Positions 4,606 to 24,248 of a stretch of 25,261 nt of DNA are shown here, piece after piece (the stretch's first letter is position 1; each line of letters begins with the position of its first letter). Where the stretch lies: IMG/VR virus record IMGVR_UViG_3300017727_000145, positions 1 through 25,261 of that record. One strand, given 5' to 3'. The translations under genes were made by a program, and so were the position numbers. Under the pieces are notes generated by a model, which did no database searches, was not told the origin of the DNA, and saw nothing but the letters and a program-made list of their open reading frames with translations. This DNA comes from a virus.

Positions 4606-7600
4606 CGTCGCCAGAACAGATACCTTTGAAGTTCAAAGGCAAAAGATTAACCAGCTTGGAAATCAAATTTTCAACATCTCAGAAGGTGGTTCTGATCTTT
4701 CGACCGGCAATTTAAAATTAGGAGATGGTACTAGAGGTACTCCATCTCTAGCATTTGCTTCTGATGTAAGTTTAGGTTTATATAAAAATGCTCAGAATGA
4801 ATTAGGATTTGTCAGTAACTCAAAAAAAGTTTTAGATCTTAAATTAGAAGAATCCGTATTCTATAAAAATACTGTAGTAAGAAAAAATACGATTACTACT
4901 AGTGGAGTTACAATTAATCAATCCGGATCGGGATATGATATCGGATCATATTCTGATGTAGCACTTTTGGGTGGATCTGGATCTGGATCTACAGCATCTA
5001 TTAATGTTCTTTCTTATAGCGGAAGTATTACGACAAATGGAGACGGATATACTCCAGGAAATTATACTGATGTAGATTTAACAGGAGGAAATGGTGTCGG
5101 AGCTGTTGCTGATGTAGTTATTACTAGTGTTGAAGGTACTATTACTAATGCTGGTTCTGGATATACTGATGGACTATATTCGGACGTTGGGTTGACCGGA
5201 GGAAGTGGAGTAGGAGTAACAGCAGAATTTGATATTATATCTGGGGTTGTAGATAGTATTACAATTACTCCAGGAACAGGAAATGGTGGTTATATTCAAG
5301 GAGAAGTATTATCAGTAGCAGCTGCTCAGGTCGGAGGAACTGGGGCTGGGTTCCAATTTACTATTTCTAGCAATCCAGGTACTGTCGAAACGTTTTCTAT
5401 ATCACTTTATGATGATGGCAATCTGTATCAATCTGGTGATATTTTATCTTTAGATACTTCTGTGGTCGGAACTCCATCCACACCATTTCAATATACTATT
5501 GGTGATGTAGGGGTTATTGATAATATAAGTATCACTAATTCAGGATTAGGATATAACGATAATGATATTTTAACTGTAAATGCTTCAGATCTTTCATCTA
5601 ATATCGAATATGCTGTTACTGTTGTAGCAACACAATTAATAGAATTTTCTCCAAATACCGTAGCATCTTCTGTTTTTACCAAGAACAATGATGTTCAAGG
5701 TAGAAGTGGTCAAGTTGAAGGCGTAGGATTAGTTAACGTATATACAGGATCCAACAATCAGACATACAACAATGTTTCTTTACCTGGAGCATCTGGTACA
5801 GGTTTGGTAATTGATTTTATTACTAATACCGAAGGCGAGTTAGAAATTTCTAATGTTGTTTCTACTGGTTTTGAATATACAACTTCAGAAGTTATCAATA
5901 TTCCATCAGGTTCTGTTGGAGGAATTTCGGGAGCACAGATAACAATTCAATCGGCGTCTACTTTCAGTGCTATTCCATGCTATGAAGTGTTTTCCACAGG
6001 ATCTTTCATAGATGCTATTGTAGTTGGAAATGATAGTTTTGATGTAAATGATCAAATATTTGAAATAGGTAATAGCAATTACCAAACTATCACAGGAGTG
6101 ACTTCGGCAAATCAATATTTACTTGATGATGGCACTGGCGATACACCAGAAGACCAATACAATCCATTATTTACATTATACTCTGGTAACACATATAGAT
6201 TTATCTATTCAGACTCTTCCAATTCAGGACATATTTTTGCTCTCAGTAGAACTCCCGGAGGAGAATTTGGTACAGTATCTCAATCTGGAGTTACTATTTC
6301 AACTTCTTCAAAAACTTTAACAGTTACCGATACTACTGGCATTACAGTTGGAATGACAGTTAGTGTTTCTGGAGGATCTGGGGTACTTGAGGCAACATCT
6401 GTAGTAGAAAGTATTGTCAATGGAACTTCTTTGACTCTTGATAGTTTTCCTACAGGAGATGGTACTGCTGATTTAACATTTACTGGAGTAGAGTATAGCG
6501 AAGGAACTTTTAAGGGAGCAGACTATTTAGATATTACTATTAATGATGCCACCCCAAATATATATTTTTACTGTACCGTCCATCCTTTAATGGGTGGGTA
6601 TTCTGAATATGAATCAGTTTTATCTACCAATACAAATAACCCCAAAGTTTTTGGATCTGGATTTGAGTTATTAGTTGATACTGTTTCTACCGTAGATTCA
6701 GTTCTTTTGGATGTATCTTCAGGCGATGTAGCAGCATCTTCTTTTACTGGACTTTCGGGCAGTATTTCCTCATTAGTTTCTAATGTTAGTGTAACTACTC
6801 CGTTATTGGAAGGAACAACTATCAATGGAACTTCGTTAAATTCTACAACATCTTTATCTATTACATCCGTAAATGGAACGACAGTAACTGGCGATTTAGA
6901 CATTGGTACTACTATTCAAACTGTAGCGTCTACTGGATCAATTACGACTTCAGGTGAATTAAAAACTAATGGATCTTTTAATTCATCAGATAAATTAATA
7001 ATTACTGATAATAACATCAGTTCTAGTTTAAACAATAGTGTTATTATCACACCAGCAACAGATCAAATTGTCAAAGTGGATAGCGACACTGCTTTAATTA
7101 TTCCTAGCGGACTATCTACTGAAAGACCAACAACTCTTGCTGAAAATGGTGCTATTAGATTTAATACAGAAAATGGGCAATATGAAGGTTATAGTGCCGC
7201 CACAACCTCTTGGTCTTCTTTAGGTGGTGTTAGAGATATTGACGGCAACACATATATCGAAGCAGAAGCAACAACTGGGGCTAACGACAATACTTTATAT
7301 TTTTATAATGATGGTAACAATACTGTAAAAATAACTCCACAAAAATTAGATTTTCTTAGTGCCAAGACTATTTCTTCTTCCAAAGTTGGTTTACCTACTC
7401 ACACAGTGTATAGTTCAAATCAAAATTATACTGTAGGCGATTACGCAAGATACGAGAAAAATTTATATGAAGTTACTGTGGCTGGTACTTCAGGTACTTC
7501 TGGAAATGAACCTGTTCATACTTCAGGAGCAGCTTTATCAGGAACAGTAGAATTTACGTGGTTTGCCATTGCTGTTGATGATCTTACATTTAGTCAAATT

Positions 7601-9182: not shown

Positions 9183-12100
9183 ATGAGCTTTAAGTTTAAC
9201 TCGGATAACGAAAGAATCTCGGGCATAAATCCTTCCATCTTAGGAGAATCCGAATTTACTATTAGAACTGGTACGTCGGCTTCCGAGAGGGAAATTTTTA
9301 GAGCTCAATTGTCAGATGCTGGTCTGCCAAGAGTTGGTATTAATAGGACTGGGAGAAAGATTGAAAAAATTACTGTTGGATCGAAAGGTGCTGATTATAC
9401 AATACCTCCAACGGTTGTTATTGAATCTCCAACTAGATCACCGTTTGTTCAAGCTCAAGCTTCAGCCGTAATTAATAATGGGTTAGTAACAGCAATTGTA
9501 GTTGACAATCCTGGAGATGGATACGAAACTGCTCCAGCAATTACCTTCACTGGTGGTGGAGGTGGAGCAGGTGTTTCGGCTACTTCTACTCTGGATGAAG
9601 TCTTATTTGAGTTAGATGTCAACGGAGCTGTAAGAACTTCAACATCTATTATTTCTGATACTGCTCGTATCTTGAACCTTGATATTGATAATTTTGTTAC
9701 CGCTGATGCTAGTTTTAGAGCTCCCAATCTTAAAACTTTCCAAAATAATACTGGAACTCCTTGGGCACAAAACGTCATTGTTCAGGTAGGAGATTATCGT
9801 TATTATAATACTAATGTATATCAGGTAATAACTTCTGGACAAACTGATTCTATTAGTCCACCAGAACATACTGATGGTGTTGAAGCAAATGGAACTGCTC
9901 AACTAAAACATATTGGTTTTAGAGTTATTGATCAAAACCAACCTTTCTATAGCGAGACAGGTGAAGCAGGAATTTTTCCAAGATCTATTACTCCAAGACT
10001 AGGAGATAGATCAGATAAGATTGCTACTACAGAATACGTCCTCAACCTAGCAACGAATGACGTTGGTGGTCGTGTTTATGTCTCACAATCTATTGGCGAT
10101 GATTTAAATGATGGTCGTTCTGCTGTAAACCCAGTTAGAACAATCAAAAAAGCATGTCAAATTGCTTGGTCTACTGTTGGAGTCAAAGAGACTCTTATCA
10201 TCTCCGGGGGAGACTATGTAGAAGATAACCCAATTTCAATACCACCAGATTGTTCACTTGTTGGTGACAACCTTCGTTTAGTTATTGTAAGACCACAAAA
10301 TGCTAGAAAGCATGTATTTAAGTTTGGTGATAAAAATTATGTAACTGGTATTACTTTCCGTGATCAAATTGATTCTAATGGAGATCCTGTGGCAACATGG
10401 GATTTTGCCATGGTATTTGACGATAAGCAAAGAATTTATTTTGATAAAGAATCTGGTGGTGGGTTTGGAAGAACCTTACCTATTGGTCATCAAGTATTTG
10501 GACCACCTAGAATTTCTTCCACTTTCCAAACTAATACTGGGTTAAGTAACTTAACAATAGGAAGTGCTGTAAGAGGTATTAATACTGGTGCTGAAGGTAC
10601 AATATTTTCTTTATCATTTACAACAACTACTGGACCACAAGCTTATGTAAATGGCACAGGTTTGGTAAATGTTACTAATAGTACGTTTGCTACAGGAGAA
10701 ACTTTCCAATTTGGTGGTTCTGGCACATCTAAGTACTTAGAAGAGACCGCTGTAACAAGTGGCGATATCCTCTGGGCGATTGGTAATGTTTATACTGTAA
10801 CAGCATCAGGTACTACAGGTACATCTATCCCAAATCATACTAGTGGTGCTGCTACAAATGGAACCGCAGAACTTACTTTCCTTAGAGTCGCTTATGAGTT
10901 TGTTTCTACTGACATCAAATCTATTCGTGCTGAAGGTGAAGTTGTAGAGACTGGAACTGATTATACTACAGCTCTTCCCATCACAAGAATTGATTTTTCC
11001 AAGCAAGGAACTGCCGAAGTTTCTCAAGGTGGTTTTGGATCTGAGGTGGAAGGAAATGGCGAAGACTTGGGTGGTATTATTTTCTATACTAATGCTCTTT
11101 CTGGAAGAGCAAACGTCCATCCTTTCAAAGAAGGTCAGGAAATTGAAATTTCTGGTCTACCTTCATCCCCAACAGATTTATCATTCCTTAATGGAAAGCA
11201 AAGAATTTATAAAATATTATTAGATGCTGATGGAAGATCTAGAAGGTTCGTAATTCCTAAAAAGACTACAGTTCTTACCACAGATAATTACTTACCAACA
11301 GGTATCGTAGAAGTAAAGTCAGCAATGTCTTACATGACATTATCTTTACTAAACTCACCAAACAAATTTAATAGAGCATCATATGTTTCCAGAAGATATC
11401 AAGATGCTTGTAATTTAATTAGAAACAATATAGATTTTATTAAAGATGAAGTTGTTTTAAAATTAAACGATCAATTTGCTAAAAAACATTTTGCAGTTGA
11501 AAACTACAATTCTGATTTAAATACTTTTAATGTAAGGACAAATCCAAACAGTTTTGCTCATTCCTACGTGAGCGGCGGTACAGTAACGTTTGAAGGAACT
11601 GAATATACAGTTTCAAATCTAGCTTATAACAATGAAACTGGGATTGGTTCTATATCTACAACAACAACAATCTCTGGATTAAAAAATGATGATATCGTAA
11701 AAGTAGAAGATATCGTAGTTTCTTGTACACAGGGACAAAAAATCTATCCAGGATTTAATATTCCTGGCGGAGACTCGAAGTGTTACCGAGATGTTGGTCA
11801 CTTTGTCAATGCTATTCTAATGGACCTTGAGTATGGTTCAAATTCTCATGTTATCGAAGCAGCAAAATATTATATTTCTGGAGCTAGAGTTGAATATGTA
11901 GATAACGAAATTATTCAAACTATTAGAGCTTTTGAATATGCCAGACAACTGATGGTCTTGGCAATGAGAAATTGGATTACCGGAGATGGAACTTCCAGTA
12001 ATCTAGAATATGTTCCAGAATATTCGAGTGTTGCTAGATACAAAGATCCAACAGTAATTTCAACAACAGCTGGAGCTCCCGTTTGTGCTGATGTAGAAGC

Positions 12101-15100
12101 TTCTATTAATACAATAGTATATCTTTTTAATGATATCCTAGCAAATAATACTAATGGAACACTTCTGGATGCTGCTTATTTAGTTGCTAGAAATAGACAC
12201 GTAATTGCTGATCAATCATTTAGAGATGCCACATCATTCTATCCAGCACTTAGATTAAATGAGCAAAGATCATTTAAGTGTAAGAGAGATATTAGTCTTG
12301 TACTTTCCGGTTTAATTAGAGATTTATGTCTTGGTGGCAACTCGGGTATCGTCAATGCCGCCGAGCAATACTATACTGGTCAAGCATTAACTGGAGTTCC
12401 TGAAGCACAACTTGGCGGCACCATTTATGCCTTCCGTCAGGTTCGTAAGTACGCTCGTCAAGCGATGCGTAATTGGACAAATGGTAATTTTATTGACACA
12501 ACTCCATCCTTCTCTACATATAGTTCAACTTCTGGGGAGTTAACTGTAACATTCCCAACTCCAACCACACCTATTATAGCCAATAGAACTAGAGTTGCTT
12601 TTAAAGAAGGTGCTATCACATTCAATTGTGATCCTGGATCTGGAGCAGGTAATCACGCAAGTCCTACTCCATCAGATCGTAATTATGGCAAGAGTAGTCT
12701 AATTACTGCTGTTAGTATCAATGGTGGAAACACAACTATCACAACTAATGTTGGAGATGCTGGTTCTGCTGCTGGGATTAACCACACATTTGACTCAGCG
12801 TTGGCAAATGGAACCATTTTAGTTTGGGATGAAATTGATGTTTATTCTCCTATTCCTAGATTTGAAGATTGGAATATTCTTGTAGATGGATCCAATGTAG
12901 CTTTAGAACTTCTCACTCCATCTGACGCTACCTACAACCCTGCTACAGGAGATTTTACTATTACATCAGTTGGTCATGGGTATTCCACCAGCAATGTGAT
13001 CAGAATTGCTCCACAGTCTTTCACGTTCACTTGTGCCATGGATGGCGACAAGACAGAACATTATCTTCCTGGTGCTGGTCAAACAGCGTTTGATAGCGAA
13101 TTAGCGATCACCGGGACTACTAATGATACTATTACTGTAAACGTAGGTGCTTCTGCTGCTGATGTACAATTTACACCAACAGATGCTATATACGATCCTG
13201 CTACTGGTGAGTTTACGATAACAATCGGATCACATAGTTTATACATTGGTGCTGGTATTACTATTGATGATAATTCAATTTCCTTTACTTGTGAGATGGA
13301 TGGAGATGACTCAACTAAGTCATATCCACGTCCAGGTATTGATCCGTTTGCTGGAAGATCTATTCCAATTTCAGCAGTTGGTCCAACCACTATTACAGTT
13401 AATGTAGGTAAGTCTGGTGCCAATAAGTATTGGCAACCATCGTCGGCTAGTTACGCTGCTGACACTGGCGATATGATCATGGATATTGGACAACATGGTC
13501 TAGGAGTTGGTAGAAGTGTTGTTCTTGAAGATAATTCACTCACATTTACTTGTGATTCAGATGGAAATGTTTCTCAAGAAACCTATCCACGCCCTGGATC
13601 TGATCCTTTTGCTGGCAAGTCTATTGCTATTACTAATGTTGGATCATCTCAGCATACAGCAACTAATGCTGATTATGATGCTTTGCTGGGTCTTGTAACT
13701 TTAACAATTGCTAATCATAACTTCACTGAAGGTGATTATGTTAAAGTTGCTGATACTTCATTAACATTCTCTTGCCAACCTGAAGGAGAATCTGCTCCTA
13801 TCAATAAATCATACCCTCGTGCTGGGTACGATTATCCAAGTGGTCGTTGGTTACAAATTACTAACGTAACTACAAATACGTTTGATATTGAAGTTGGTCC
13901 TTCTGCTTATACGGGAAGTCACAGTTTTGTAAGTGCTGCTGCTAACGGGATCGAAAGACAAAATGGACTAATAACAATTAATGTGGGTGCTTCTCCAGTT
14001 GGTCAGCAATACACCCATGCTTTTGTAGGTGCTACTGCTAATGCCGTACAGCATCTACCACAATCTGATCATACTTTTGTTTCTGCCGGAACTAATGCTA
14101 TTAAGCATCTACCACAATCGACACATACATTTGTAAGAACCCAGAATAATTCTATTGCTATATTTGCATCTGGAGGATCTCCTGTTTGCTCTGGTATTGC
14201 TTCTACTATCAATACTTCCATGTTACTACTTGAGCAAATTTTAGATGGAACTATTGCTCCTGGAGGAACAGCAGTAAATTATGGAACTCTGTTTGATACT
14301 TCAAATATTCTGACTAGACCAGATAATTATCTTTATGATCAAGATAATAAAATCATAACTCCAACAACTACATATAATGATCTTCCTATCATTGAGGCAT
14401 CTCCATATACACAAAACGCTTCGGTTATTTCTTTCCTAGGTGGCGGTGGTGCTGAAATCGATGGAGACAAAGTTGCTTCTCCCAACTCACCATTCCCTGG
14501 TCTAGAACTTGACGGATCAGCATCCTTCCCCAACCAAGGAAAATCAATGGTTGCTGCTGCCTTTACCATCATCACATTTGGTGGTACTGGATATAGAGTT
14601 ATTAATGACGGTTATACTCAGTTAGTTTCTGTCTTCGTTATCTTTGCTGAAAATGGTTGTTTATCCGAGTCTGGTGGATATGCTTCTATCACTAACTCTG
14701 CTACCAACTTCGGTACATTTGCCCTAAGAGCATCAGGATTTAGAAAAGAATCCTATGAGTTTGACTCTGGATACACATCTGGTGGAGGAGTTTATAATAG
14801 AGCATATATTTCTAATGTATCAAATACAGTTACCGGCAGATCTATTCTTACGGTAGAGAATTTAGGAAGAAGAGCTCTAGAGCATTATATCGTCAAGGTA
14901 GATGGTTATAGTAATGTTGATAGTGATACAGAATTTTTCATAGATGAAGTAACTGGAGGTACAGTAGGACCACCATTTACGTGTACTTTAACTATAGATG
15001 ATGGCACGGGTGGATCACTTTCTCTAATTGATGATAATAACGGACAAGTGGTCAGTGCTACAAATTTAGTAGCGTATCACAACACTAATTACGGTAGTGA

Positions 15101-18100
15101 TCCTTCAGTAGCACTACATAGACCATCTATTGTTAACTCTTCTTCCCACACTTGGGAATTTGCTGGATCTGGTACTAATTACAATGCCTTGCCAGAGAAC
15201 GGTGGAACTAAGATCGAAGCAAACGAACAAGTTTCCGAAAACTATGGTCGTGTTTATGTTTCTGGTACTGACGAACTTGGTGACTTCAAGGTTGGTACAT
15301 TCGCCAAGATCGAGAACAGAACTGGTGCTATCACCTTTACAGGAACAGTTACCATCTCCGAAGTTGAATTCTTAAAACTGAAGGGTGGTGATGTTGTTGT
15401 TACTGGTTTCGATGCTTCCAATACACTTGGTGGTGCTACATCTTCTGACAGCAAGATCCCAACCCAGAAAGCAGTCAAGGACTATATTACTAACAACCTT
15501 GGTCCATATATCAACAAACCATACTCAACAAACGCTGTTCCTAGAGCACTTGTTGAACTAACAGATAGTGGCAAAATTTCACTAGATCAAATTCCTGCTC
15601 TACGTCCATTTAGTGTTTACACAGTTGCTGATCAAGCAGAAAGACTTGGGGCTAATACCACATATGGAGATAGTGGTGCTCTTGCCGGAGATATTGTTAT
15701 TCAAAACGATACCTCCCGATCGTTTATTCTTAATAATGATACGGAAAGTCAGTTCTTAGGTTTCTCTTACAATGCTGCCTTAGCATTTACGGTGAATGAT
15801 ATATATGCTTCCAGAAATTCCGGTGGTGCTGTTGGAGGCAGTGGATCACAGATTCAAGCAACAGAATATAGACAAGGTATTTTGTATACTGTCAATATTA
15901 CTAATGGTGGATCTGGGTACACATCAGCTCCAAATGTAACAATTAGTGGTGGAGGATCTCCAACAGTATCTGCTGATATCATAGCAACCGTTGCTAACGG
16001 TCAAATTGTATCACTAAGTATTGTAGAATTTAATAATTATGTTGGTGGTTATGGGTACTCATCTGTTCCTACAATTACAATTGATGCTCCTACATCTGGA
16101 GGTGGTACACAAGCAACTGCTAGTGGATTGATTGAAAGTAGACTTTACGGAAGCATTGTTAATAATGTAAAATTTGCCGATACAGATTACGTCAATGATG
16201 ATAATGGAACTACAGTAGATGTAATTAGAGTATACAATACTTCTTCTACGAATATTAGTAATTGGGTAGCACTATCTTCCGATCAGATTGATGCTGGATC
16301 TGTTACTTCTGGTATTCTATCCACATCAAGATTGGCACAAAACTCTTCTGCTGCTAACTCTTTCACATTTTTAAGAGGAGACCAAGCATACGCTCCCGTC
16401 CTTCAGTCATTAAAAGGTGCTGAAACAAGATACTTCGCTATTACTAGTGCTCAATCTCTCACTAATTCCAGTACACTAACATTCGCAACAAATTCAAATC
16501 TTCTTAAAGGGCATGAAGTTGTAGATAATGTTTCTGGCATTCAATCTAATACGTTGATTTCAGTTGTAACTACTGCTGCTGGTACTACGGATATTTTATT
16601 AGATAAAGCTTTATCGGCAGATGTTCCAGCTGGAACAATCATCCAATTTGAAAGAGGAGTATCTCCTCTTGTTATGGAGTCTACGTTTACTATTGGAGCT
16701 TTCGTAGAAGAAATTGTTATTGCTAATCCTGGTAGTGGATACACCAACGGATCGTATCCTGATGTTCTTTTAACTGGAACTGGTAATGGTACAAGTCTTA
16801 AAGCTAATGTAGTTATTGCCGGTGGAACAGTAACATCAGTTCTGGTAACTAATGGTGGTACTGGATTCACAAGCGGCGACTTTGTTATTTCTGGTGCTAA
16901 TATCCCAGTAATATTTGGTCCTGGTTCAAATTTAAATCTACGAGCAAAAGTAGGAGAAGTAACCAGAAACTATGCTAACACTACTATTGATATCAGTAGG
17001 ACAACAGATCAGACTATTTCTCAAGATTTATATGGTACAGTTGGTGTTTCTAGATTTAAAAAATCTCAGTTCAATATTGGTGATGACGGAAACGGATCTA
17101 TAGAATTAAAATCAGGTGATGGTAGTAATTTAGATGCTGATTTACTTGATGGATTCCAAGGATCACATTACACTAATGCCGGTAGTATTACATCAGGTGT
17201 TCTAGGAACTGATAGATTATCCGGTACTTATAATATTAATGTTTCTGGTCAAGCAGGTGCCACACTACGTTTAGAAACTGACATCGGTTCTCTAAGTTCT
17301 TCTTCTAGTCCAGATCAATTCCCATCTGGTTTAAGTGCTGATACTAAAAACAATTCGGCGGATGGACTTGATGACGGTGGAATTCGTCACCTGTCAGTAA
17401 CCCTAAGGAACGGTGCTTCTGGTACTGACGCTACTTATGGTGGTGTTAGACAATTAGCATTCACTGATAATGATAACATGTGGATTCGTGGTTCTGGAAC
17501 TACTCCAGCAAACTCGTTTGGAACATGGTATAAAATATGGTCAGAAAAAAATGATGGTCCAGATACAGGACTTGATGCTGACAAGTTAGATAACAAAGAA
17601 GGTAAGTGGTATCAAACTGCTTATAATATAAACTACGGTATTCTATCTTGTAACAGGATCCCAGAATATCTAGAAGAAACTAATATTAAAGACTCATTAA
17701 TTATTAGAGGAATCAACAACTTCGAGTATTATGAGATATATGTTCCGAATCAACTATTGGTTGGATTACCTTTTGTTGATGCTAACGGATCATATCAAGT
17801 TGTAAATCTATATGATTCTACTTCTAATAGTGTTGGTAGTTTCCAAATTACAAATATTGTTACTAATGACGAAGTTCCTGTACCACCAAATCCAGCAAGT
17901 TCGGAAGATACTTCTGGTGACTATAGTATTCTGACAGGTTACATTAGTAGTGGTGGTTTTGTTGGGGCACTAACTGTTGGTACTGCTTCTAATAGACCAG
18001 CATTTGCTGACTATAGAATTATACTTCCTCCAAATAATGAGACCACACAAACTGTATATGAAGGAGCAAGACTTTCTGACGGAGAATTAATTCTTGGTAG

Positions 18101-19979
18101 AAAGGATGACAATGCTTCTACACCGGATATCAAATTTAGATCTGGTGCTACTACTGCTAATAACAGCGGGACGATCACATACGACTCCAGTATTGTAGCT
18201 TCTGGAGGAAACGGTAGTACGGGCCAAGGTACTATAAATGTCATTGTAGGAACAAATGATAGTTTTACAATTAACAGTAACATTGTTTATAATGCTGGTA
18301 ACCTATCATTCTCTAGTACGGGTGCTTCTAATTCAGTCGTAGTACTAGATAACAGTGGTAATTTTAGCGCCAACGAAATTACAGCAACTCTAATTGGTTC
18401 TGCTTCTGATAATTTATTGCTAACCGGAGGCACTATTGATGGTGATCTCAATATTGGTAACGTAGCAACTTCAAGAACTCTAACAATTACCGGCGATGTT
18501 GATGTTTCAGATACACTAGACGTAAATGGAATATTTAAAGTTGACACTACCAACAACTTAATATACGGTGATGTAACAAATGGCAATGTTCTAATAGGTT
18601 CTGCTCCAGCAGCAACAGTAGCACAAAATGGTAAGTTTAATATAAACACTACTACTGATGGTAAAACTGCTTTAACATTAAGAACAACAGATAACACAGC
18701 AGATCAAGGTATTGCTTTCCAGAATGGTGGATATTCTTATACTTGGAGTATCTTTAGAAAAGCATCTGATTATGGCACCAATAATCCAGCAACAACATCG
18801 GCTGCCGACCTTTATTTCAATGGTGCCAATACAGCAGCAGAATCCAATATCGATAACTTACCTAATTCTCTCATCTTAAGAGCAGGTGGTGATATCGAAA
18901 CTGGCAGCGGTAATGTTGGTATTGGTCAGTCTCCACTTGACATTCCATACAAACTATCTGTTAATGGTCAAGTACATACAGAGAATGCTTCTGCTGTTAG
19001 TTATAGTGATCAAGATTCTTATCTCGTATTCTTCAATGATTTAGAAGTAGAAGTTTTAGATACATCTGCTAACTCTGGATACAATGTAATGAATACATTT
19101 GTTGCCGAGAAGACAGGTGATTTAAGAATCAAGTGGACATCGTACATTGAATCCGGTCCAAACTGGTATGCTTTCCGATTTACTAAGAATGGAACTGAGT
19201 TGTTCAATGCTCCATATAATTCCGTTACATATCTAGACGGAAACAGTGCTTCTGTACACAATTACAGAAACTTCTCTGCTGCTATCACTGATGTTAATCC
19301 AGGAGATATCATTTCATATGAAATGGTATCGTCCACTTCTGGTGGATCACCTGTAAATGGTAGTGGAACTCAAGATCTATATTGTAAGAACTTTAGGGTT
19401 TTTAGTGGATCTCCTCATCATGCTAATCCTCATGGTGGCAATGTTTTTATCGGTGATGGTCAGATCGGTATTGGAACTGGTATCCTAATTAATCCCAGTG
19501 ACTCAACTACAGAGTATGCTTTGAATATTCAGGGCAACATCAACTTCAATGGTTTGTTGCTTCAAAATAATGCCGAATTTATTGCTTCTAGATGGTCCGA
19601 ATCCGGAACCGATATCTATAGAAACTCTAGAGTTGGTATTGGCGAAACTACTCCTATATACACTCTTGATATTGGCGAAGACTTCACAGATGCTGGCGAG
19701 ACTGGTCGTCTACGTGTTCAAGGTACTTCTAGATTAGAAGGTGCTGTAACAGTTTCTACTGGTGGTGCTGAGATTACAGGAGACCTCGAACTTAAAGACG
19801 GATTTACTGTCAATGGTTCTGCTCAATATCTTGATACTTATGGCATCATCAAATCTTCTGGTCAAACTATTGATGAAAATGTTACTATCCCAGCTGGAAC
19901 AAATGCTTTCTCGGTTGGAGATATTATTGTTGCTAATGGAAGAACAATTACCGTAAATGGTGTTTGGAAAATTCTTTGA
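9183..19979 (+). CDS. Giant fibre-like virion protein with split parallel beta-helix (3598 aa)
   Basis: A single uninterrupted frame from ATG 9183 to TGA 19977. Approximate map in residues: 60-135 GxGYT repeats; 194-250 and 523-575 VGDYxYYxxxVYQV-like modules; 297-430 start of a pectin-lyase-like beta-helix (RVYVSQSIGDDLNDGRS, SIPPDCSLVGDNLR); 737-1105 helical segments with CYRDVGHFV and CKRDISLVL motifs; 1247-1510 four repeats of about 80 residues containing FTCxxDG and YPRPGxDPFAG; 1740-1865 resumption of the beta-helix (GKSMVAAAFTIITFGG, NSATNFGTFALRASG); 2235-2320 and 2510-2573 GxGYT repeats; about 2651 LDGFQGSHYTNAG; 2754-2790 pyocin-knob-like RQLAFTDNDNMWIRG with TWYKIW; 3270-3410 a C1q/TNF-like jelly-roll; 3483-3500 VGIGETTPIYTLDIG; and a final NVTIPAGTNAFSVGDIIVANG end domain. 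It is very probably a host-contacting appendage, inferred from modules and position. Confidence 0.85.
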   Translation: MSFKFNSDNERISGINPSILGESEFTIRTGTSASEREIFRAQLSDAGLPRVGINRTGRKIEKITVGSKGADYTIPPTVVIESPTRSPFVQAQASAVINNGLVTAIVVDNPGDGYETAPAITFTGGGGGAGVSATSTLDEVLFELDVNGAVRTSTSIISDTARILNLDIDNFVTADASFRAPNLKTFQNNTGTPWAQNVIVQVGDYRYYNTNVYQVITSGQTDSISPPEHTDGVEANGTAQLKHIGFRVIDQNQPFYSETGEAGIFPRSITPRLGDRSDKIATTEYVLNLATNDVGGRVYVSQSIGDDLNDGRSAVNPVRTIKKACQIAWSTVGVKETLIISGGDYVEDNPISIPPDCSLVGDNLRLVIVRPQNARKHVFKFGDKNYVTGITFRDQIDSNGDPVATWDFAMVFDDKQRIYFDKESGGGFGRTLPIGHQVFGPPRISSTFQTNTGLSNLTIGSAVRGINTGAEGTIFSLSFTTTTGPQAYVNGTGLVNVTNSTFATGETFQFGGSGTSKYLEETAVTSGDILWAIGNVYTVTASGTTGTSIPNHTSGAATNGTAELTFLRVAYEFVSTDIKSIRAEGEVVETGTDYTTALPITRIDFSKQGTAEVSQGGFGSEVEGNGEDLGGIIFYTNALSGRANVHPFKEGQEIEISGLPSSPTDLSFLNGKQRIYKILLDADGRSRRFVIPKKTTVLTTDNYLPTGIVEVKSAMSYMTLSLLNSPNKFNRASYVSRRYQDACNLIRNNIDFIKDEVVLKLNDQFAKKHFAVENYNSDLNTFNVRTNPNSFAHSYVSGGTVTFEGTEYTVSNLAYNNETGIGSISTTTTISGLKNDDIVKVEDIVVSCTQGQKIYPGFNIPGGDSKCYRDVGHFVNAILMDLEYGSNSHVIEAAKYYISGARVEYVDNEIIQTIRAFEYARQLMVLAMRNWITGDGTSSNLEYVPEYSSVARYKDPTVISTTAGAPVCADVEASINTIVYLFNDILANNTNGTLLDAAYLVARNRHVIADQSFRDATSFYPALRLNEQRSFKCKRDISLVLSGLIRDLCLGGNSGIVNAAEQYYTGQALTGVPEAQLGGTIYAFRQVRKYARQAMRNWTNGNFIDTTPSFSTYSSTSGELTVTFPTPTTPIIANRTRVAFKEGAITFNCDPGSGAGNHASPTPSDRNYGKSSLITAVSINGGNTTITTNVGDAGSAAGINHTFDSALANGTILVWDEIDVYSPIPRFEDWNILVDGSNVALELLTPSDATYNPATGDFTITSVGHGYSTSNVIRIAPQSFTFTCAMDGDKTEHYLPGAGQTAFDSELAITGTTNDTITVNVGASAADVQFTPTDAIYDPATGEFTITIGSHSLYIGAGITIDDNSISFTCEMDGDDSTKSYPRPGIDPFAGRSIPISAVGPTTITVNVGKSGANKYWQPSSASYAADTGDMIMDIGQHGLGVGRSVVLEDNSLTFTCDSDGNVSQETYPRPGSDPFAGKSIAITNVGSSQHTATNADYDALLGLVTLTIANHNFTEGDYVKVADTSLTFSCQPEGESAPINKSYPRAGYDYPSGRWLQITNVTTNTFDIEVGPSAYTGSHSFVSAAANGIERQNGLITINVGASPVGQQYTHAFVGATANAVQHLPQSDHTFVSAGTNAIKHLPQSTHTFVRTQNNSIAIFASGGSPVCSGIASTINTSMLLLEQILDGTIAPGGTAVNYGTLFDTSNILTRPDNYLYDQDNKIITPTTTYNDLPIIEASPYTQNASVISFLGGGGAEIDGDKVASPNSPFPGLELDGSASFPNQGKSMVAAAFTIITFGGTGYRVINDGYTQLVSVFVIFAENGCLSESGGYASITNSATNFGTFALRASGFRKESYEFDSGYTSGGGVYNRAYISNVSNTVTGRSILTVENLGRRALEHYIVKVDGYSNVDSDTEFFIDEVTGGTVGPPFTCTLTIDDGTGGSLSLIDDNNGQVVSATNLVAYHNTNYGSDPSVALHRPSIVNSSSHTWEFAGSGTNYNALPENGGTKIEANEQVSENYGRVYVSGTDELGDFKVGTFAKIENRTGAITFTGTVTISEVEFLKLKGGDVVVTGFDASNTLGGATSSDSKIPTQKAVKDYITNNLGPYINKPYSTNAVPRALVELTDSGKISLDQIPALRPFSVYTVADQAERLGANTTYGDSGALAGDIVIQNDTSRSFILNNDTESQFLGFSYNAALAFTVNDIYASRNSGGAVGGSGSQIQATEYRQGILYTVNITNGGSGYTSAPNVTISGGGSPTVSADIIATVANGQIVSLSIVEFNNYVGGYGYSSVPTITIDAPTSGGGTQATASGLIESRLYGSIVNNVKFADTDYVNDDNGTTVDVIRVYNTSSTNISNWVALSSDQIDAGSVTSGILSTSRLAQNSSAANSFTFLRGDQAYAPVLQSLKGAETRYFAITSAQSLTNSSTLTFATNSNLLKGHEVVDNVSGIQSNTLISVVTTAAGTTDILLDKALSADVPAGTIIQFERGVSPLVMESTFTIGAFVEEIVIANPGSGYTNGSYPDVLLTGTGNGTSLKANVVIAGGTVTSVLVTNGGTGFTSGDFVISGANIPVIFGPGSNLNLRAKVGEVTRNYANTTIDISRTTDQTISQDLYGTVGVSRFKKSQFNIGDDGNGSIELKSGDGSNLDADLLDGFQGSHYTNAGSITSGVLGTDRLSGTYNINVSGQAGATLRLETDIGSLSSSSSPDQFPSGLSADTKNNSADGLDDGGIRHLSVTLRNGASGTDATYGGVRQLAFTDNDNMWIRGSGTTPANSFGTWYKIWSEKNDGPDTGLDADKLDNKEGKWYQTAYNINYGILSCNRIPEYLEETNIKDSLIIRGINNFEYYEIYVPNQLLVGLPFVDANGSYQVVNLYDSTSNSVGSFQITNIVTNDEVPVPPNPASSEDTSGDYSILTGYISSGGFVGALTVGTASNRPAFADYRIILPPNNETTQTVYEGARLSDGELILGRKDDNASTPDIKFRSGATTANNSGTITYDSSIVASGGNGSTGQGTINVIVGTNDSFTINSNIVYNAGNLSFSSTGASNSVVVLDNSGNFSANEITATLIGSASDNLLLTGGTIDGDLNIGNVATSRTLTITGDVDVSDTLDVNGIFKVDTTNNLIYGDVTNGNVLIGSAPAATVAQNGKFNINTTTDGKTALTLRTTDNTADQGIAFQNGGYSYTWSIFRKASDYGTNNPATTSAADLYFNGANTAAESNIDNLPNSLILRAGGDIETGSGNVGIGQSPLDIPYKLSVNGQVHTENASAVSYSDQDSYLVFFNDLEVEVLDTSANSGYNVMNTFVAEKTGDLRIKWTSYIESGPNWYAFRFTKNGTELFNAPYNSVTYLDGNSASVHNYRNFSAAITDVNPGDIISYEMVSSTSGGSPVNGSGTQDLYCKNFRVFSGSPHHANPHGGNVFIGDGQIGIGTGILINPSDSTTEYALNIQGNINFNGLLLQNNAEFIASRWSESGTDIYRNSRVGIGETTPIYTLDIGEDFTDAGETGRLRVQGTSRLEGAVTVSTGGAEITGDLELKDGFTVNGSAQYLDTYGIIKSSGQTIDENVTIPAGTNAFSVGDIIVANGRTITVNGVWKIL
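11391..12485 (+). repeat. Repeated helical Cys-Arg-Asp segments inside the giant protein
   Basis: Three related helical stretches occur: RRYQDACNLIRNNIDFIKDE from residue 737, KCYRDVGHFVNAILMDLEYG with C867, and KCKRDISLVLSGLIRDLCLG with C1033. The second and third continue with an AA-x-x-YY segment and end in a YARQ...AMRNW motif (AFEYARQLMVLAMRNW, RKYARQAMRNW). They are probably degenerate copies of one alpha-helical domain, unusual in an otherwise beta-structured fibre. Confidence 0.7.
12921..13917 (+). repeat. Four tandem beta repeats of about 80 residues with FTC...YPRPG signature
   Basis: Repeat starts fall near 12921 (SDATYNPATGDFTI), 13179 (TDAIYDPATGEFTI), 13440 (SSASYAADTGDMIM) and 13656 (TATNADYDALLGLVTL), about 70-87 residues apart. 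Each has a central FTC or FSC cysteine, as in SFTFTCAMDGD, SISFTCEMDGD, SLTFTCDSDG and SLTFSCQPEG. Copies 2-4 follow with YPRPG or YPRAG and a DPFAG-like or DYPSG segment. Most end in an ITVNVG-like strand. These are classic tandem fibre-shaft or adhesin units. Confidence 0.85.
13908..14160 (+). repeat. Short HxFVxAxxNAIxHLPQS repeats
   Basis: Immediately after the 80-residue repeats, four short units recur: SHSFVSAAANGIERQNG, THAFVGATANAVQHLPQS, DHTFVSAGTNAIKHLPQS and THTFVRTQNNSIAIF. The DNA core catctaccacaatc is repeated exactly in the middle two units, indicating recent duplication or recombination. Confidence 0.85.
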
Positions 19980-19985
19980 TAAATA
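19978..19985 (+). promoter_or_regulatory. Late promoter GATAAATA overlapping the giant gene's stop codon
   Basis: GATAAATA begins at the second base of the TGA stop (19977-19979) and ends 24 nt before the ATG at 20009. It is a one-base variant of the T4 late consensus. Predicted initiation is near 19991, leaving a leader of about 18 nt that contains the purine-rich aagatagg before the start codon. Confidence 0.75.
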
Positions 19986-20008: not shown

Positions 20009-20536
20009 ATGAGCACAATTGAAGTAGGTACTTTATATTATGGAGATGCTGGTGCTTCTGGCGCTGTGTTACCATGTTTGAAATTAAGAACAGTACTCTT
20101 TAGTGATATTAGTACTATGGGAAACGCTTGGGCTCAGCGAAGTGTGTTTAATACTAGTGCGTTGATCAATAATGGTGGTTTCGGAGTTACTTCGGAAGCA
20201 ATTACAATTCCCGAAGCGGGAAGGTATTTTGTTACGAGTAATATGATTCATGAAGATCAAACGGCAGCATCAACTACCCAAGATAATTATCGTTGTACTA
20301 TGTGGCATCGTTGGTCAATTAATGGCATTGCTCAAGTCGAAGAATCTAGATCTTCATATATGAGAGATTACGCCAATCAGGTTAGAGCATCAACTGGAAT
20401 AAGTACAATGTATGACTTGAACGCAGGAGATTTGTTGAGATTGGAATTTAGAAATTATACTGGATATAATAGTTCAAATACCCTAAAACTTGTTGACAAT
20501 AGTCACATTATGATGTTTAAATTTTCGGGACAATAA
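20009..20536 (+). CDS. C1q/TNF-like jelly-roll virion protein, tandem copy 1 (175 aa)
   Basis: It starts at ATG 20009, preceded by aagatagg, and follows a late promoter. The pattern is that of a C1q/TNF-type beta-sandwich: RSVFNTSALINNGGF (residues 44-58), ITIPEAGRYFVTSNM (65-79), RWSINGIAQVEES (101-113), SSYMR (115-119), a Tyr-Asp-LNAGDLLRLEFRN stretch (135-149) and a last strand SHIMMFKF. In C1q proteins the same order appears as a strand ending in ...AGLYxF, a W/V-x-x-NG strand and L-x-x-GD. It shares RxVFxTSxxINxGGF with the next gene, so the two are paralogues. The probable role is a small receptor-binding or decoration protein associated with the giant fibre; fold and role are inferred. 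No signal peptide is seen. Confidence 0.75.
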   Translation: MSTIEVGTLYYGDAGASGAVLPCLKLRTVLFSDISTMGNAWAQRSVFNTSALINNGGFGVTSEAITIPEAGRYFVTSNMIHEDQTAASTTQDNYRCTMWHRWSINGIAQVEESRSSYMRDYANQVRASTGISTMYDLNAGDLLRLEFRNYTGYNSSNTLKLVDNSHIMMFKFSGQ

Positions 20537-20538
20537 TA

Positions 20539-21075
20539 ATGCCATTAACAGTAAATACAATTAAAGCGAGTTCTGTTGCCCAATCAGGGGCTGGTGGCGC
20601 TGCCAGTGTATATTCGTCATCTGCTTATTTCATGACGAGATTAACTGCCAACTCAAACCCCAACGATGCCTCTAGTTTCACACATAGAACCGTGTTTGAT
20701 ACGTCGCCGGTAATCAACGAAGGTGGGTTTTCTCACGATGGAAATTATATCAATGTTCCTGAAGCAGGATTATATATTGTTTCAGCAAATGTAGCATTCA
20801 ATAATGCCTCGGCAAGAGATGTACCAGGATTTCGATTTGGTGTTAGTCTCACCGGGTCTACTGGTGCTTATTCAGGACAAGTTGAAAATTCATTATCTTC
20901 TTATATGAGAGTGGCGTCGGGTCATAATGAGGCTAGTACAGAACTTGTTACTGCTTACCAACTAAATGTGGGTTCTGGTATTAGAATGGAATTCAGAAGA
21001 TTTGGAAATACCGGAATTAATACAACAATTATTCCATCTTATAGTTACATCACAATTTGGAGATTAGGAGCTTAA
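20539..21075 (+). CDS. C1q/TNF-like jelly-roll virion protein, tandem copy 2 (178 aa)
   Basis: The ATG is two bases after the preceding TAA, in the string taataatg, so it is co-transcribed and probably coupled; GGGA lies nine nt upstream. The N-terminus PLTVNTIKASSVAQSGAGG is a flexible Gly/Ala/Ser lead-in. The core RTVFDTSPVINEGGF (50-64) and INVPEAGLYIVSANV (71-85) match copy 1 closely and are textbook C1q-like strands. SSYMR (120-124) is identical to copy 1, followed by YQLNVGSGIRMEFRR and a final SYITIWRL strand. Loops between strands differ strongly from copy 1, as expected if they make the binding surface. It contains no cysteine. It is likely a trimeric surface or fibre-tip protein by fold analogy. 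Confidence 0.75.
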   Translation: MPLTVNTIKASSVAQSGAGGAASVYSSSAYFMTRLTANSNPNDASSFTHRTVFDTSPVINEGGFSHDGNYINVPEAGLYIVSANVAFNNASARDVPGFRFGVSLTGSTGAYSGQVENSLSSYMRVASGHNEASTELVTAYQLNVGSGIRMEFRRFGNTGINTTIIPSYSYITIWRLGA

Positions 21076-21079
21076 TAAA

Positions 21080-21613
21080 ATGGCAACAGGAGATTTATAC
21101 GTAGATACTATTCCAGCATCAACGTCTGTAGTAGATTATAGTAATAACGATATCAAACCATCAGGAACTGTTTTTGGCAAATGTGCTAAAATTATTCTTG
21201 GTAACGGAACCAATAACGTTAATGCCAACAATTATGTCGATCAGATGACATTAGGTTTTAGCGATTTTGATGGTTTGACAGTTTCTAATACCCAAATCAA
21301 TATTGATCCGGATTTTCAAGGATTGTATCAGTGTTGTTTTCAAGTTGCTGTGGATGGCGGCAGCGCCAGATGTAACGCTGGATTCCAATGGGTCATTGAT
21401 GGGTCAGTACAATCAGAAATGTACTTGTCTAACTACAATAGACAGGGGAACGCGATACAAGGTGGCACCCATAATACCTCTAGTGATGGTGGTTGTCAAA
21501 TATTTAATGTGACAAGTAGTATAAGACTTAGAGGATCACAACAAGGAGGTGGTGGTACTATCACTACTGTTGATGGTTCTATAACAATTATGCTTATTGC
21601 TCCAGCACCTTAA
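21080..21613 (+). CDS. Diverged C1q/TNF-like protein, tandem copy 3, cysteine-rich (177 aa)
   Basis: It begins four bases after the preceding stop, with AGGAG at 21066-21070 as ribosome binding site inside the upstream gene. The layout follows copies 1 and 2: an N-terminal DTIPAS segment echoing NTIKAS of copy 2, INIDPDFQGLYQCCFQVAVD (73-92) in place of ITIPEAGRYFV, FQWVIDGSVQSEMYLSNYN (102-120) in place of WSINGIAQVEESRSSYM, GCQIFNVTSSIRLRG in place of YDLNAGDLLRLEF, and a last strand SITIMLIAP. Unlike its neighbours it has five cysteines (35, 85, 86, 98, 139), including an adjacent pair. Similarity to copies 1 and 2 is low but colinear, so the paralogy is an inference. Confidence 0.7.
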   Translation: MATGDLYVDTIPASTSVVDYSNNDIKPSGTVFGKCAKIILGNGTNNVNANNYVDQMTLGFSDFDGLTVSNTQINIDPDFQGLYQCCFQVAVDGGSARCNAGFQWVIDGSVQSEMYLSNYNRQGNAIQGGTHNTSSDGGCQIFNVTSSIRLRGSQQGGGGTITTVDGSITIMLIAPAP

Positions 21614-21631: not shown

Positions 21632-21639
21632 ACTAAATA
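21632..21639 (+). promoter_or_regulatory. Putative late promoter ACTAAATA
   Basis: ACTAAATA lies in the 47-nt gap after the third jelly-roll gene and retains the TAAATA core. The predicted start of transcription is near 21645. That is at or after a possible TTG start at 21643 and just before the ATGs at 21655 and 21661, so it favours one of the ATGs as the real start. Confidence 0.55.
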
Positions 21640-21660: not shown

Positions 21661-21996
21661 ATGGCATCTACGGTTTATTATTTCAAATTTGAAAATAGGG
21701 AAGAATGTTACGAAATTTGTAGATCTGTGGGGTATTGCTTTACAGATCCCGTAACTGGAGACACTATTATGGATGTTCCTGGTAAAGGACATATTGATGT
21801 TGCTGGACAATTTTATGATCCGGATGTTCAACCACTTTCTGCTAGTCCAGAAGGAGAAATGGAACCTGATTTTGAAAACTATGTTTGGAAAGAAGGATTT
21901 CATTTAAATGTTGTCATTAGTGATGATGCTAGTATTCCAGAAAATTTGCTTCCTTATCAAATTGAAGTAACCACGCCAAATCTACCATCTCGATAA
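21661..21996 (+). CDS. Conserved hypothetical phage protein, 111 aa
   Basis: I choose the ATG at 21661 (MASTVYYFKFENREECYEIC). It has a GAG about eight nt upstream and lies about 16 nt after the predicted transcript start. ATG 21655 adds only Met-Asp and is possible; TTG 21643 would coincide with the promoter start point. The N-terminal half has two close cysteines (EECYEICRSVGYC) and the phrase FTDPVTGDTIMDVPGKGH. The C-terminal half is acidic and ends NLLPYQIEVTTP. I recall similar short proteins next to gp13 in marine T4-like phages but know no function. There is no membrane segment or signal peptide. The stop codon lies within the next late promoter. Confidence 0.7.
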   Translation: MASTVYYFKFENREECYEICRSVGYCFTDPVTGDTIMDVPGKGHIDVAGQFYDPDVQPLSASPEGEMEPDFENYVWKEGFHLNVVISDDASIPENLLPYQIEVTTPNLPSR

Positions 21997-22288: not shown

Positions 22289-23119
22289 ATGGCAGCGCCA
22301 AGTACAAGACAGGAGTTAATTGATTATTGTAAACGTCAATTAGGTGCTCCTGTTCTACAAATCAACATTGCTGATGAGCAGACAAGTGACATCGTAGATG
22401 ATGCTATCCAGTTTTATCATGAGCATCATTTTGATGGTCTTGAACAAATGTATCTGAAGCATAACATTACTGATTCGGATGTCACTAGATTTACCACACA
22501 GAATGAAGTTACTCAAACTGTAGACCCTGATGCTACTGGATGGGAGCATAGGAAAAATTTTCTAGAAATCCCAAGTCATGTAATGGGTGTTAGTAAAGTA
22601 TTTGGCGTGTCATCGAACTTTGTTCGTAACAACTTATTTGGGATGTCAAACCAATACTTCTTGATGGATATGTTTTCCTTCTCGAATGGGTTCAAGATGG
22701 GAAATTTTGACCTTACTAATTATTATATGGTCAAACAATATTTTGAAACTCTAGATCAAGTTATCAATACTGGTGCTTTTGTACAGTATAGATTTACGAA
22801 GAGACAAGATAGATTGTATGTTGATATTGATGTCAATAGACTTAAAGAAGGAAACTGGATTCTGATTGATTGTTGGGGTTCTATAGATCCAGATACATAT
22901 ACCCAAGTATATAATGATAGTTTTCTCAAAAGGTATACCACTGCTTTAATGAAAAGACAGTGGGGAGCAAACCTCATTAAATTCAACAATGTTCAACTTC
23001 CTGGTGGCATCACCCTAAACGGTCGTCAGATCTGGGATGATGGTAACAGAGAAGTTCAAGCACTTGAGTCAGAAATGCTGTCCAAGTATTCCCTTCCACC
23101 AATGGATATGATCGGATAA
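22289..23119 (+). CDS. 13: Neck protein gp13 (T4-like)
   Basis: A 276-residue protein. It starts MAAPSTRQELIDYCKRQLGA, then PVLQINIADEQTSDIVDDAI and FYHEHHFDG, the start I recognise for gp13 of T4-like cyanophages; T4 gp13 is about 300 residues. gp13 assembles with gp14 on the portal vertex of the packaged head, closing it and forming the site where the tail docks. The C-terminal half contains WILIDCWGSIDPDTYTQVY and ALMKRQWGANLIKFNNVQLP, with GGITLNGRQI following, all conserved-looking. There is no signal or membrane segment, as expected for a cytoplasmic assembly protein. It is first in a late-promoter-driven cassette, one base before gp14. Confidence 0.9.
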   Translation: MAAPSTRQELIDYCKRQLGAPVLQINIADEQTSDIVDDAIQFYHEHHFDGLEQMYLKHNITDSDVTRFTTQNEVTQTVDPDATGWEHRKNFLEIPSHVMGVSKVFGVSSNFVRNNLFGMSNQYFLMDMFSFSNGFKMGNFDLTNYYMVKQYFETLDQVINTGAFVQYRFTKRQDRLYVDIDVNRLKEGNWILIDCWGSIDPDTYTQVYNDSFLKRYTTALMKRQWGANLIKFNNVQLPGGITLNGRQIWDDGNREVQALESEMLSKYSLPPMDMIG

Positions 23120-23120
23120 G

Positions 23121-24248
23121 ATGCCTACTAGTCCTTACTTTCCCACTTACTATAGCGGTTTTTCTGGCGAGCAAAATCTCGTACAGGATCTCGTTGACGA
23201 GCAGATCAAACTGTTCGGATCGGATATCTATTACCTACCTAGAACAATCCTGAAAGATAATACTTTAGATGACATCATCTATTCAAAGTATCAGGAACAA
23301 TTTCAGATTGAAATGCTTCTAGAGAACGTAACAGGTTTTGGAGAAACATCTGAATTTATCAGTAAGTTCGGTCTGCGTATTACAGATGAAGTAAAGTTTC
23401 GAGTCTCTACAAGACGTTGGGATGAAGAAGTAACTGAACATGCTCCTACTCTTACATTAGATAACAGACCTAACGAGGGAGATCTATTGTATTTCCCGTT
23501 GACAAAAGATTTGTATGAGATCAAATTTGTAGAAAGAGAGCAACCTTTCTATCAGATGGGCAAACTTCAATTCTACACAATGACTGCTGAGATCTATGAG
23601 GTTGGCAGTGATAGCATCGAGACAGGTGTTGCTGAAATTGATGTAATTGAAACAACCCAGTCTAGTTCCATTAAACTGTTTATGGATCCTGGTGGTACAG
23701 GAGACTTTGTTGTAGGAGAAGAAATTGTAGGTGACGAGTTCCTTGCTAAGGCAACATCAACTATTAGTGGTGATGCTGTTGATGGTGTAGTAATGACAGA
23801 CACTGGTTTGTACTACAACCAATCACTACCACCATCTGTTACATTCTCTGGCGGAGGAGCAACTACAGATGCTACGGGCACGGCGACGGTTTCTGCTGCT
23901 GGTCTTATTACTGGGGTTGTCATCACAGATGGTGGTGCTGGTTATACTAGTGCTCCTACTGTCACTATTGATTACTCACCCAAAGACAATAGAGCAGATG
24001 TCAAGTCTTGGGATAGTGCTACACGTGCCTTGGAAGTCATCAACAGAACAGGAACCTTCACAACTGCTGAACTAGTTACTGGTCTAACTTCAGGTGCTAC
24101 TTGGAGTCCCGAGTCGTTTAACACTCTAAATAATACCAACAGCGCCTACGATCAAAACTCCGAAATTGAAGATGAGGCTGATAACCTTATTGATTGGGGA
24201 GAAGTTAATCCCTTCGGTGAGTATGGCAACTTTATGGATTCATTCTAA
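23121..24248 (+). CDS. 14: Neck protein gp14 (T4-like) with inserted GxGYT beta repeats
   Basis: A 375-residue protein starting one base after gp13. The N-terminal 150 residues (SPYFPTYYSGFSGEQNLVQD, IKLFGSDIYYLPR, then TLDDIIYSKYQEQFQIEMLL) are the recognisable gp14 core, which with gp13 closes the head and joins it to the tail. T4 gp14 is about 256 residues, so this one is roughly 120 longer. Much of the extra is residues about 221-287, a pair of GxGYT-type repeats (GLYYNQSLPPSVTFSGGG, GAGYTSAPTVTIDYS) like those in the fibre proteins upstream. The C-terminus returns to a plausible gp14 end (EDEADNLIDWGEVNPFGEYG). The stop overlaps the gp15 ATG by one base. Confidence 0.88.
   Translation: MPTSPYFPTYYSGFSGEQNLVQDLVDEQIKLFGSDIYYLPRTILKDNTLDDIIYSKYQEQFQIEMLLENVTGFGETSEFISKFGLRITDEVKFRVSTRRWDEEVTEHAPTLTLDNRPNEGDLLYFPLTKDLYEIKFVEREQPFYQMGKLQFYTMTAEIYEVGSDSIETGVAEIDVIETTQSSSIKLFMDPGGTGDFVVGEEIVGDEFLAKATSTISGDAVDGVVMTDTGLYYNQSLPPSVTFSGGGATTDATGTATVSAAGLITGVVITDGGAGYTSAPTVTIDYSPKDNRADVKSWDSATRALEVINRTGTFTTAELVTGLTSGATWSPESFNTLNNTNSAYDQNSEIEDEADNLIDWGEVNPFGEYGNFMDSF
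23781..23980 (+). repeat. GxGYT-type repeat pair inserted in gp14 (residues about 221-287)
   Basis: Two units, VVMTDTGLYYNQSLPPSVTF and VVITDGGAGYTSAPTVTIDY, share the pattern V-V-(I/M)-T-D-x-G-x-x-Y-(7-8 residues)-V-T-(I/F). They are the same family as the units in the 1467+-, 1345- and 3598-residue virion proteins, although gp14 is a neck protein. Confidence 0.8.

Follow-up and report, generated by a model that had tools for sequence, protein, structure and literature searches.

Detachable adhesins of the gp38 type, carried on the long fibres of T-even phages, are encoded by a small separate gene behind the fibre gene and are inferred to cap the fibre end. In marine phages, putative receptor-binding genes with a C1q domain have been reported beside tail-fibre genes in metaviromic islands (Mizuno, Ghai and Rodriguez-Valera 2014, PMC3909814); in the part of that paper drawn on here, these are single C1q-domain genes of pelagiphages, under-recruiting in metaviromes, for which host recognition was inferred. 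Among cyanophages, a C1q tail protein of S-B05 was reported in 2021 (PMC7824862), and the S-CAM7 fibre (AOV62158) likewise contains a homologous C1q-like domain, in this case at its C-terminus. A hyperplastic region between g15 and g18 of cyanomyoviruses, a variable insertion site amid conserved structural genes, has been reviewed (PMC2984593).

The locus described here, in a T4-like cyanophage, resembles each of these systems and differs from each. As in the metaviromic islands, C1q-like genes adjoin a tail fibre, but there are three of them, separate, position-fixed and co-inherited, and they show no evident excess variation. The domain that is fused to a collagen-repeat fibre in S-CAM7 is here free-standing and triplicated; compared with gp38, the fold differs and three genes replace one. 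The variable slot that the trio occupies lies at a different site from the hyperplastic region, from the giant fibre to g13, and would hold tip adhesins rather than metabolic genes. The gC1q/TNF trimers, and in particular the A, B and C heads of complement C1q, have a jelly roll in common with the predicted fold of the trio, and complement C1q likewise has three distinct paralogous chains; identity to it is about 10-15%, the three proteins have no collagen stalk, and a heterotrimer is hypothetical here. A literature search, with subscription literature outside its scope, returned no description of the slot, of a fixed trio or its joint transfer, or of trios of unrelated families recurring in one slot. 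C1q-like genes beside marine phage fibres were thus already known, while the fixed, co-transferred trio and the recurrence of trios appear to be new as far as the papers searched extend.

Organization of the locus

The window, that is, the whole stretch of DNA analysed, is a viral contig of 25,261 bases in which gp13, gp14 and gp15 of a T4-like cyanophage lie downstream of the trio (C1, C2 and C3). Among named phages it comes closest to Synechococcus myoviruses (Kyanoviridae where classified), with 71-73% DNA identity in the interval from just upstream of gp13 to gp16. Large structural proteins of 1405, 1345 and 3598 aa are encoded upstream, and the trio is located between the 3598-aa fibre gene and gp13:

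9183-19979, + strand: giant fibre protein, 3598 aa (PHROG phrog_5342 tail fiber protein, 4068 bits)
19978-19985, + strand: late-promoter-like motif GATAAATA, putatively serving the trio, 31 bp 5' of C1 (a match to the consensus)
20009-20536, + strand: C1, putative tip protein at position 1, 175 aa (35% identical to C2; orthologues in loci L002, L003 and L004)
20539-21075, + strand: C2, putative tip protein at position 2, 178 aa (TNF/C1q matches by AlphaFold2 and Foldseek)
21080-21613, + strand: C3, diverged putative tip protein at position 3, 177 aa (AlphaFold2, Foldseek, and hhalign to the C2 profile)
21632-21639, + strand: next late-promoter-like motif, ACTAAATA, after C3 and 29 bp 5' of the 111-aa ORF
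21661-21996, + strand: small ORF of 111 aa after the trio (phrog_18574, no function label)
22289-23119, + strand: gp13 (neck), the conserved right edge of the variable slot (phrog_211 head-tail adaptor, E=6.7e-47)

C1 begins 29 bp past the end of the fibre ORF, and the gaps between C1 and C2 and between C2 and C3 are 2 and 4 bp, so that the first-pass annotation was exact in placing three ORFs of these lengths directly behind the giant fibre gene. It was also right to place a single late promoter ahead of them, in that a promoter-like site lies at 19978 and the next one follows only after C3; for this reason the trio looks like one transcription unit. Five of the eight matches to this motif on the + strand of the window are intergenic, 26-40 bp ahead of an ORF start.

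Further downstream, the C-terminal half of gp14 (window 23121-24248; residues about 180-340) has matches to many PHROGs of baseplates and fibres, which suggests that a repeat domain has been inserted there. The gp14 of Syn1 and of Sf-FR1 is shorter (292 vs 375 aa).

Homology and predicted fold of the three proteins

C1 and C2 are clear paralogues (35% identity over 134 aa, BLASTP E=8e-20; shuffle z=25), and all of the shared motifs originally quoted for them are present: RxVFxTSxxINxGGF as RSVFNTSALINNGGF in C1 and RTVFDTSPVINEGGF in C2, (I/V)PEAGxY as IPEAGRY and VPEAGLY, and SSYMR in both. C3 had been called colinear but more diverged, in agreement with its weak pairwise similarity (C2-C3 E=2e-4, z=5; C1-C3 E=0.002, z=4). 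Profile-profile comparison including orthologues gives E=2.5e-7 over 161 columns against C2 (hhalign) and E=7.5e-6 against C1, so that similarity among the copies is significant with C3 included, and C3 is confirmed at the level of profiles as a distant family member. The accompanying idea that framework strands are kept while loops vary finds little echo: conservation of strands and loops does not differ significantly within the C2 orthologue set (p=0.29), within the C3 set (p=0.15) or among C1 plus C2 (p=0.23), and the difference becomes marginal (p=0.03) over all twelve proteins of the four lineages.

The proposed C1q/TNF-like fold is borne out by structure prediction for C2 and C3 and by homology for C1. 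AlphaFold2 single-chain models built from small alignments are jelly rolls (pLDDT 76.6 for C3 and 66, a modest confidence, for C2), both with the strand pattern of a ten-strand jelly roll and with a TM to target of about 0.5-0.76. In Foldseek searches of the PDB, the best matches of the C2 model are APRIL, Eiger, BAFF, TNF, C1q-like 3 and Bacillus ExsFA/BxpB (E about 1e-6 to 1e-5), and those of C3 include 4-1BBL, APRIL, C1q globular heads and Bacillus BclA (E about 1e-5); against viral models, C3 retrieves the tail fibre of S-CAM7 together with many phage proteins of C1q or collagen type. For C1 the fold is assigned through its 35% identity to C2 and weak TNF profile matches, TNF-family chains heading the list when the PDB is searched with a C1-orthologue profile (E=0.007, weak). 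Sequence searches of the PDB gave nothing convincing for C2 and no match for C3. None of the three reaches the curated Pfam cut-offs for C1q or TNF, the best scores being 15.1 bits for C2 against TNF (cut-off 23) and 13.6 bits for C1 against BclA_C (cut-off 38), with none for C3. Membership therefore rests on fold and not on family models: the three proteins share a predicted C1q/TNF fold and are not members of those Pfam families as modelled.

Evidence for a position at the fibre tip

In S-CAM7, a homologous C1q domain forms residues 1228-1374 of the 1375-residue fibre AOV62158 (E=1.3e-17), with collagen repeats upstream, and it is also C-terminal in a 727-aa neighbour of that fibre. The trio domains had no convincing match in any of the three large proteins of the window, the giant fibre included. 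As the same domain ends the fibre in S-CAM7 and is a free gene after the fibre elsewhere, it is best read as a separable tip, and the assignment of the trio to the fibre tip, first raised as a possibility in the first-pass annotation, is now supported by the Foldseek matches and by this C-terminal fusion. A cluster of sugar-nucleotide and glycosyltransferase genes (GDP-mannose dehydratase, GDP-fucose synthetase, glycosyltransferases) directly precedes the two collagen-C1q fibre genes of S-CAM7 (locus L026, 7098-10952 and 14500-20845).

The trio might instead decorate the baseplate, neck or capsid and adjoin the fibre gene through gene order alone, as the neck genes gp13-gp15 directly downstream and matches of the C1q-like domains to halovirus proteins annotated as baseplate assembly protein V could indicate. 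We consider this improbable, given that S-CAM7 fibre proteins terminate in this domain at their C-terminus, that the slot always lies behind the giant fibre, and that the remaining families in the slot are lectin-like or of fibre-tip type.

The slot in other cyanophages

We compared 20 loci over the stretch that runs from the fibre towards gp13; the four C1q-trio loci are among them, and a few stop short of gp13. Homologous trios of small proteins occur at nine loci and in three families, while larger tip proteins are single, paired or mixed. A glycine-rich family (about 250 aa) is present as three tandem homologues in Sf-FP1, Sf-FR1 and S-RIM44, with best matches by position, and the phrog_6942 family (about 190 aa) forms tandem trios in ACG-2014j and S-WAM2, between which no clean one-to-one order was found. 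The S-PM2 slot holds one fibrinogen-like and two LamG proteins, and that of S-H9-2 three unlike, mixed lectin/fibrinogen-like tip proteins. Two tip genes are found in ACG-2014h, Sf-CH11 and Sf-CH1b, and a single large tip protein in Syn1, S-RIM32, S-H9-1, ACG-2014e, ACG-2014i and S-RSM4; since other phages thus carry one or two larger tip genes, three are not obligatory for the locus. One tip for each large fibre (three large genes, three tips) is disfavoured, as Syn1 combines a single tip gene with a similar set of large structural genes. Two of the tip-gene families, phrog_6942 and phrog_28263, align to longer fibre profiles at the C-terminal end of the latter.

In S-H9-2, ACG-2014h and S-H9-1, the large tip genes are interspersed with small ORFs of 109-123 aa, which resemble dedicated tip chaperones and could be such:

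L009, 15446-15775 and 16709-17077: interleaved small ORFs
L037, 10370-10741 and 11672-12037: interleaved small ORFs
L041, 10358-10729: interleaved small ORF

If those of S-H9-2 and ACG-2014h are assembly factors, and considering that the PHROG label of the glycine-rich slot family is 'tail fiber assembly', the trio itself might be thought of as tail-fibre folding chaperones or temporary caps that bind no receptor. This seems very improbable to us for a C1q/TNF fold, which typically binds and which is part of the fibre proper in S-CAM7; moreover, the three slot genes of S-PM2 are annotated 'virion structural protein'. Virion proteomics of S-PM2 and S-SM1 have been published, as cited in PMC3037559.

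Most slot tip proteins start with the signature M-S-x-[LI]-x-V-x-x-[ILV], a pattern present in 37 of 114 slot ORFs and 0 of 192 other ORFs at the same loci. In these counts related proteins are not independent, and the pattern was picked after inspection, so that a held-out test is more informative. When 278 unseen N-termini are scored with a matrix trained on non-C1q tip proteins, C2 ranks third and C3 fifth, and slot proteins fill all of the first 13 places; C1, which fits only the first part of the signature, ranks 37. At the other side of the putative junction, a C-terminal domain of the giant fibre (about 60 aa) is conserved in all 21 fibres compared, whichever tip family follows, and may be the docking site for the N-terminal segment of the tip proteins.

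Age and joint transfer of the trio

The contig closest to the window, IMGVR_UViG_3300017742_001156, is 99.95% identical over 5898 bp, and its differences from the window include a single change in C2 and another in C3, not enough for a test of hypervariability between near-identical strains. Three further relatives are diverged:

IMGVR_UViG_3300037847_003575 (V37847, locus L002): C1-C2-C3 order after the same fibre end; oxygenase-like gene at 5063-5626
IMGVR_UViG_3300021368_000894 (V894, locus L003): C1-C2-C3 order after the same fibre end; oxygenase-like gene at 5043-5597
IMGVR_UViG_3300021368_001926 (V1926, locus L004): C1-C2-C3 order after the same fibre end; oxygenase-like gene at 5085-5648

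All three also carry a homologue of the 111-aa ORF behind the trio (77% identical in L002, 36% in L003 and 32% in L004). The gene 3' of C3 in each encodes a 2OG-Fe(II) oxygenase-like protein of 184-187 aa, matching Pfam 2OG-FeII_Oxy_3 in L002 (E=1.2e-7), with the L003 and L004 copies 51% identical to it; it is missing from the window between 21613 and 21661. Such oxygenases and tryptophan halogenases are frequent in the slot across many cyanophages, and modification of tail proteins is a possible role for the oxygenases.

Four diverged lineages with a C1q trio were found, the window included, and all four keep the order C1-C2-C3. Identity between proteins at the same position is 42-79%, compared with at most 40% between positions, and in a tree of all twelve the proteins cluster according to position (C3 100/100; C1 and C2 with bootstrap 83-88). 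The triplication is thus old and fixed. Its duplications took place before the four lineages diverged, and three distinct chains have been maintained in parallel as position-specific orthologue groups. Copy number is three in every C1q-trio relative found, and positions are not interchanged. This orthology, the trees and the constant copy number speak against a recent lineage-specific expansion, which we reject, and the first-pass view of an expanding adhesin repertoire is not supported by a trio that predates the four lineages and is co-inherited.

The trees of C1, C2 and C3, each taken alone, give the same split, (window, V37847 / V894, V1926), with support of 99-100. The last 1143 aa of the fibre give another, (window, V894 / V37847, V1926), with support of 100, which is also recovered (99-100) from the first 600 and the last 420 residues of that stretch separately. 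AU tests reject the opposite topology both ways (p 1.5e-4 to 1e-8) in a conflict that rests on four taxa. A segment at about residues 3330-3440 of the giant fibre (NVMNTFVAEKTGDLRIKW in the window version) is common to the window and V894 fibres and was not seen in the fibre ends of V37847 and V1926, a distribution that fits the fibre split. Since the trio and fibre trees conflict and the three trio trees agree, the fibre and the trio have different histories and the three genes share one, and the trio appears to move between phages as a unit. Among named phages, tblastn with the window proteins (E 1e-3) found no close relatives of the trio, and an orthologue query only distant matches in S-CAM7, a Salinibacter phage and a halovirus; bacterial and archaeal genomes contained no trio relatives, and wider scans of viral contigs with alignments added none to the same four contigs.

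These patterns bear on whether the three proteins act singly or jointly. Homotrimers are common among TNF/C1q domains, and C1, C2 and C3 could each form a homotrimeric adhesin of its own, able to cap a fibre, which would give a mixed population of tips and a wider receptor range, in line with the repertoire idea of the first-pass annotation; the mixed LamG and fibrinogen-like trios of S-PM2 and S-H9-2 are, indeed, hard to imagine as one heterotrimer. Independent adhesins, however, should be gained, lost and swapped one at a time, whereas number and order are constant here, all three genes are transferred jointly and the four lineages are without sign of recent copy-number change. We therefore disfavour this explanation, and hold it possible though on the doubtful side. 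Where the first-pass annotation offered alternative or cooperating tip receptors, 'cooperating' is the better word, as all three lie behind one promoter-like site and move together, and 'alternative' fits less well.

A model of the fibre tip

Based on these observations, we suggest that the trio is an exchangeable fibre-tip (receptor-binding) cassette that acts as a unit, a reading to which we assign a probability of about 0.68, docking and receptor binding being its inferred parts. The products of the three genes would make up the distal tip of the giant fibre. In each of them, a short N-terminal segment precedes a jelly roll of C1q/TNF type; the segment may dock or register the protein on the fibre trimer, at its conserved C-terminal domain, and the globular heads may bind a cell-surface ligand. 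The three would act together, and the most economical arrangement would be a single C1:C2:C3 heterotrimer at each fibre tip, comparable to complement C1q A/B/C, in preference to three homotrimers independent of one another. A joint three-subunit tip would explain the constant number and order, the single promoter-like site and the shared transfer; the heterotrimer itself, taken as a separate step, we consider somewhat less likely than not.

A broader and more speculative version, which we think unlikely as a whole, is that in many T4-like cyanophages an obligate heterotrimer of three tandem genes caps one giant homotrimeric fibre. Such an arrangement would have evolved separately in three or more unrelated families of adhesins (C1q-like, glycine-rich and phrog_6942), with whole trios swapped by way of a common N-terminal dock on the conserved fibre end.

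Marine T4-like cyanophages are among the ocean's commonest viruses, and their receptor-binding parts are largely unassigned. A review speaks of their 'missing' tail fiber proteins (PMC2984593), and the slot described here helps to locate them. The slot between the giant fibre and gp13, the conserved fibre end, the N-terminal signature and the interchangeable tip families together provide a finding rule that can be applied to any genome, and the rule of three, recurring across unrelated families, would make for a sharp and testable claim on the stoichiometry of the fibre tip.
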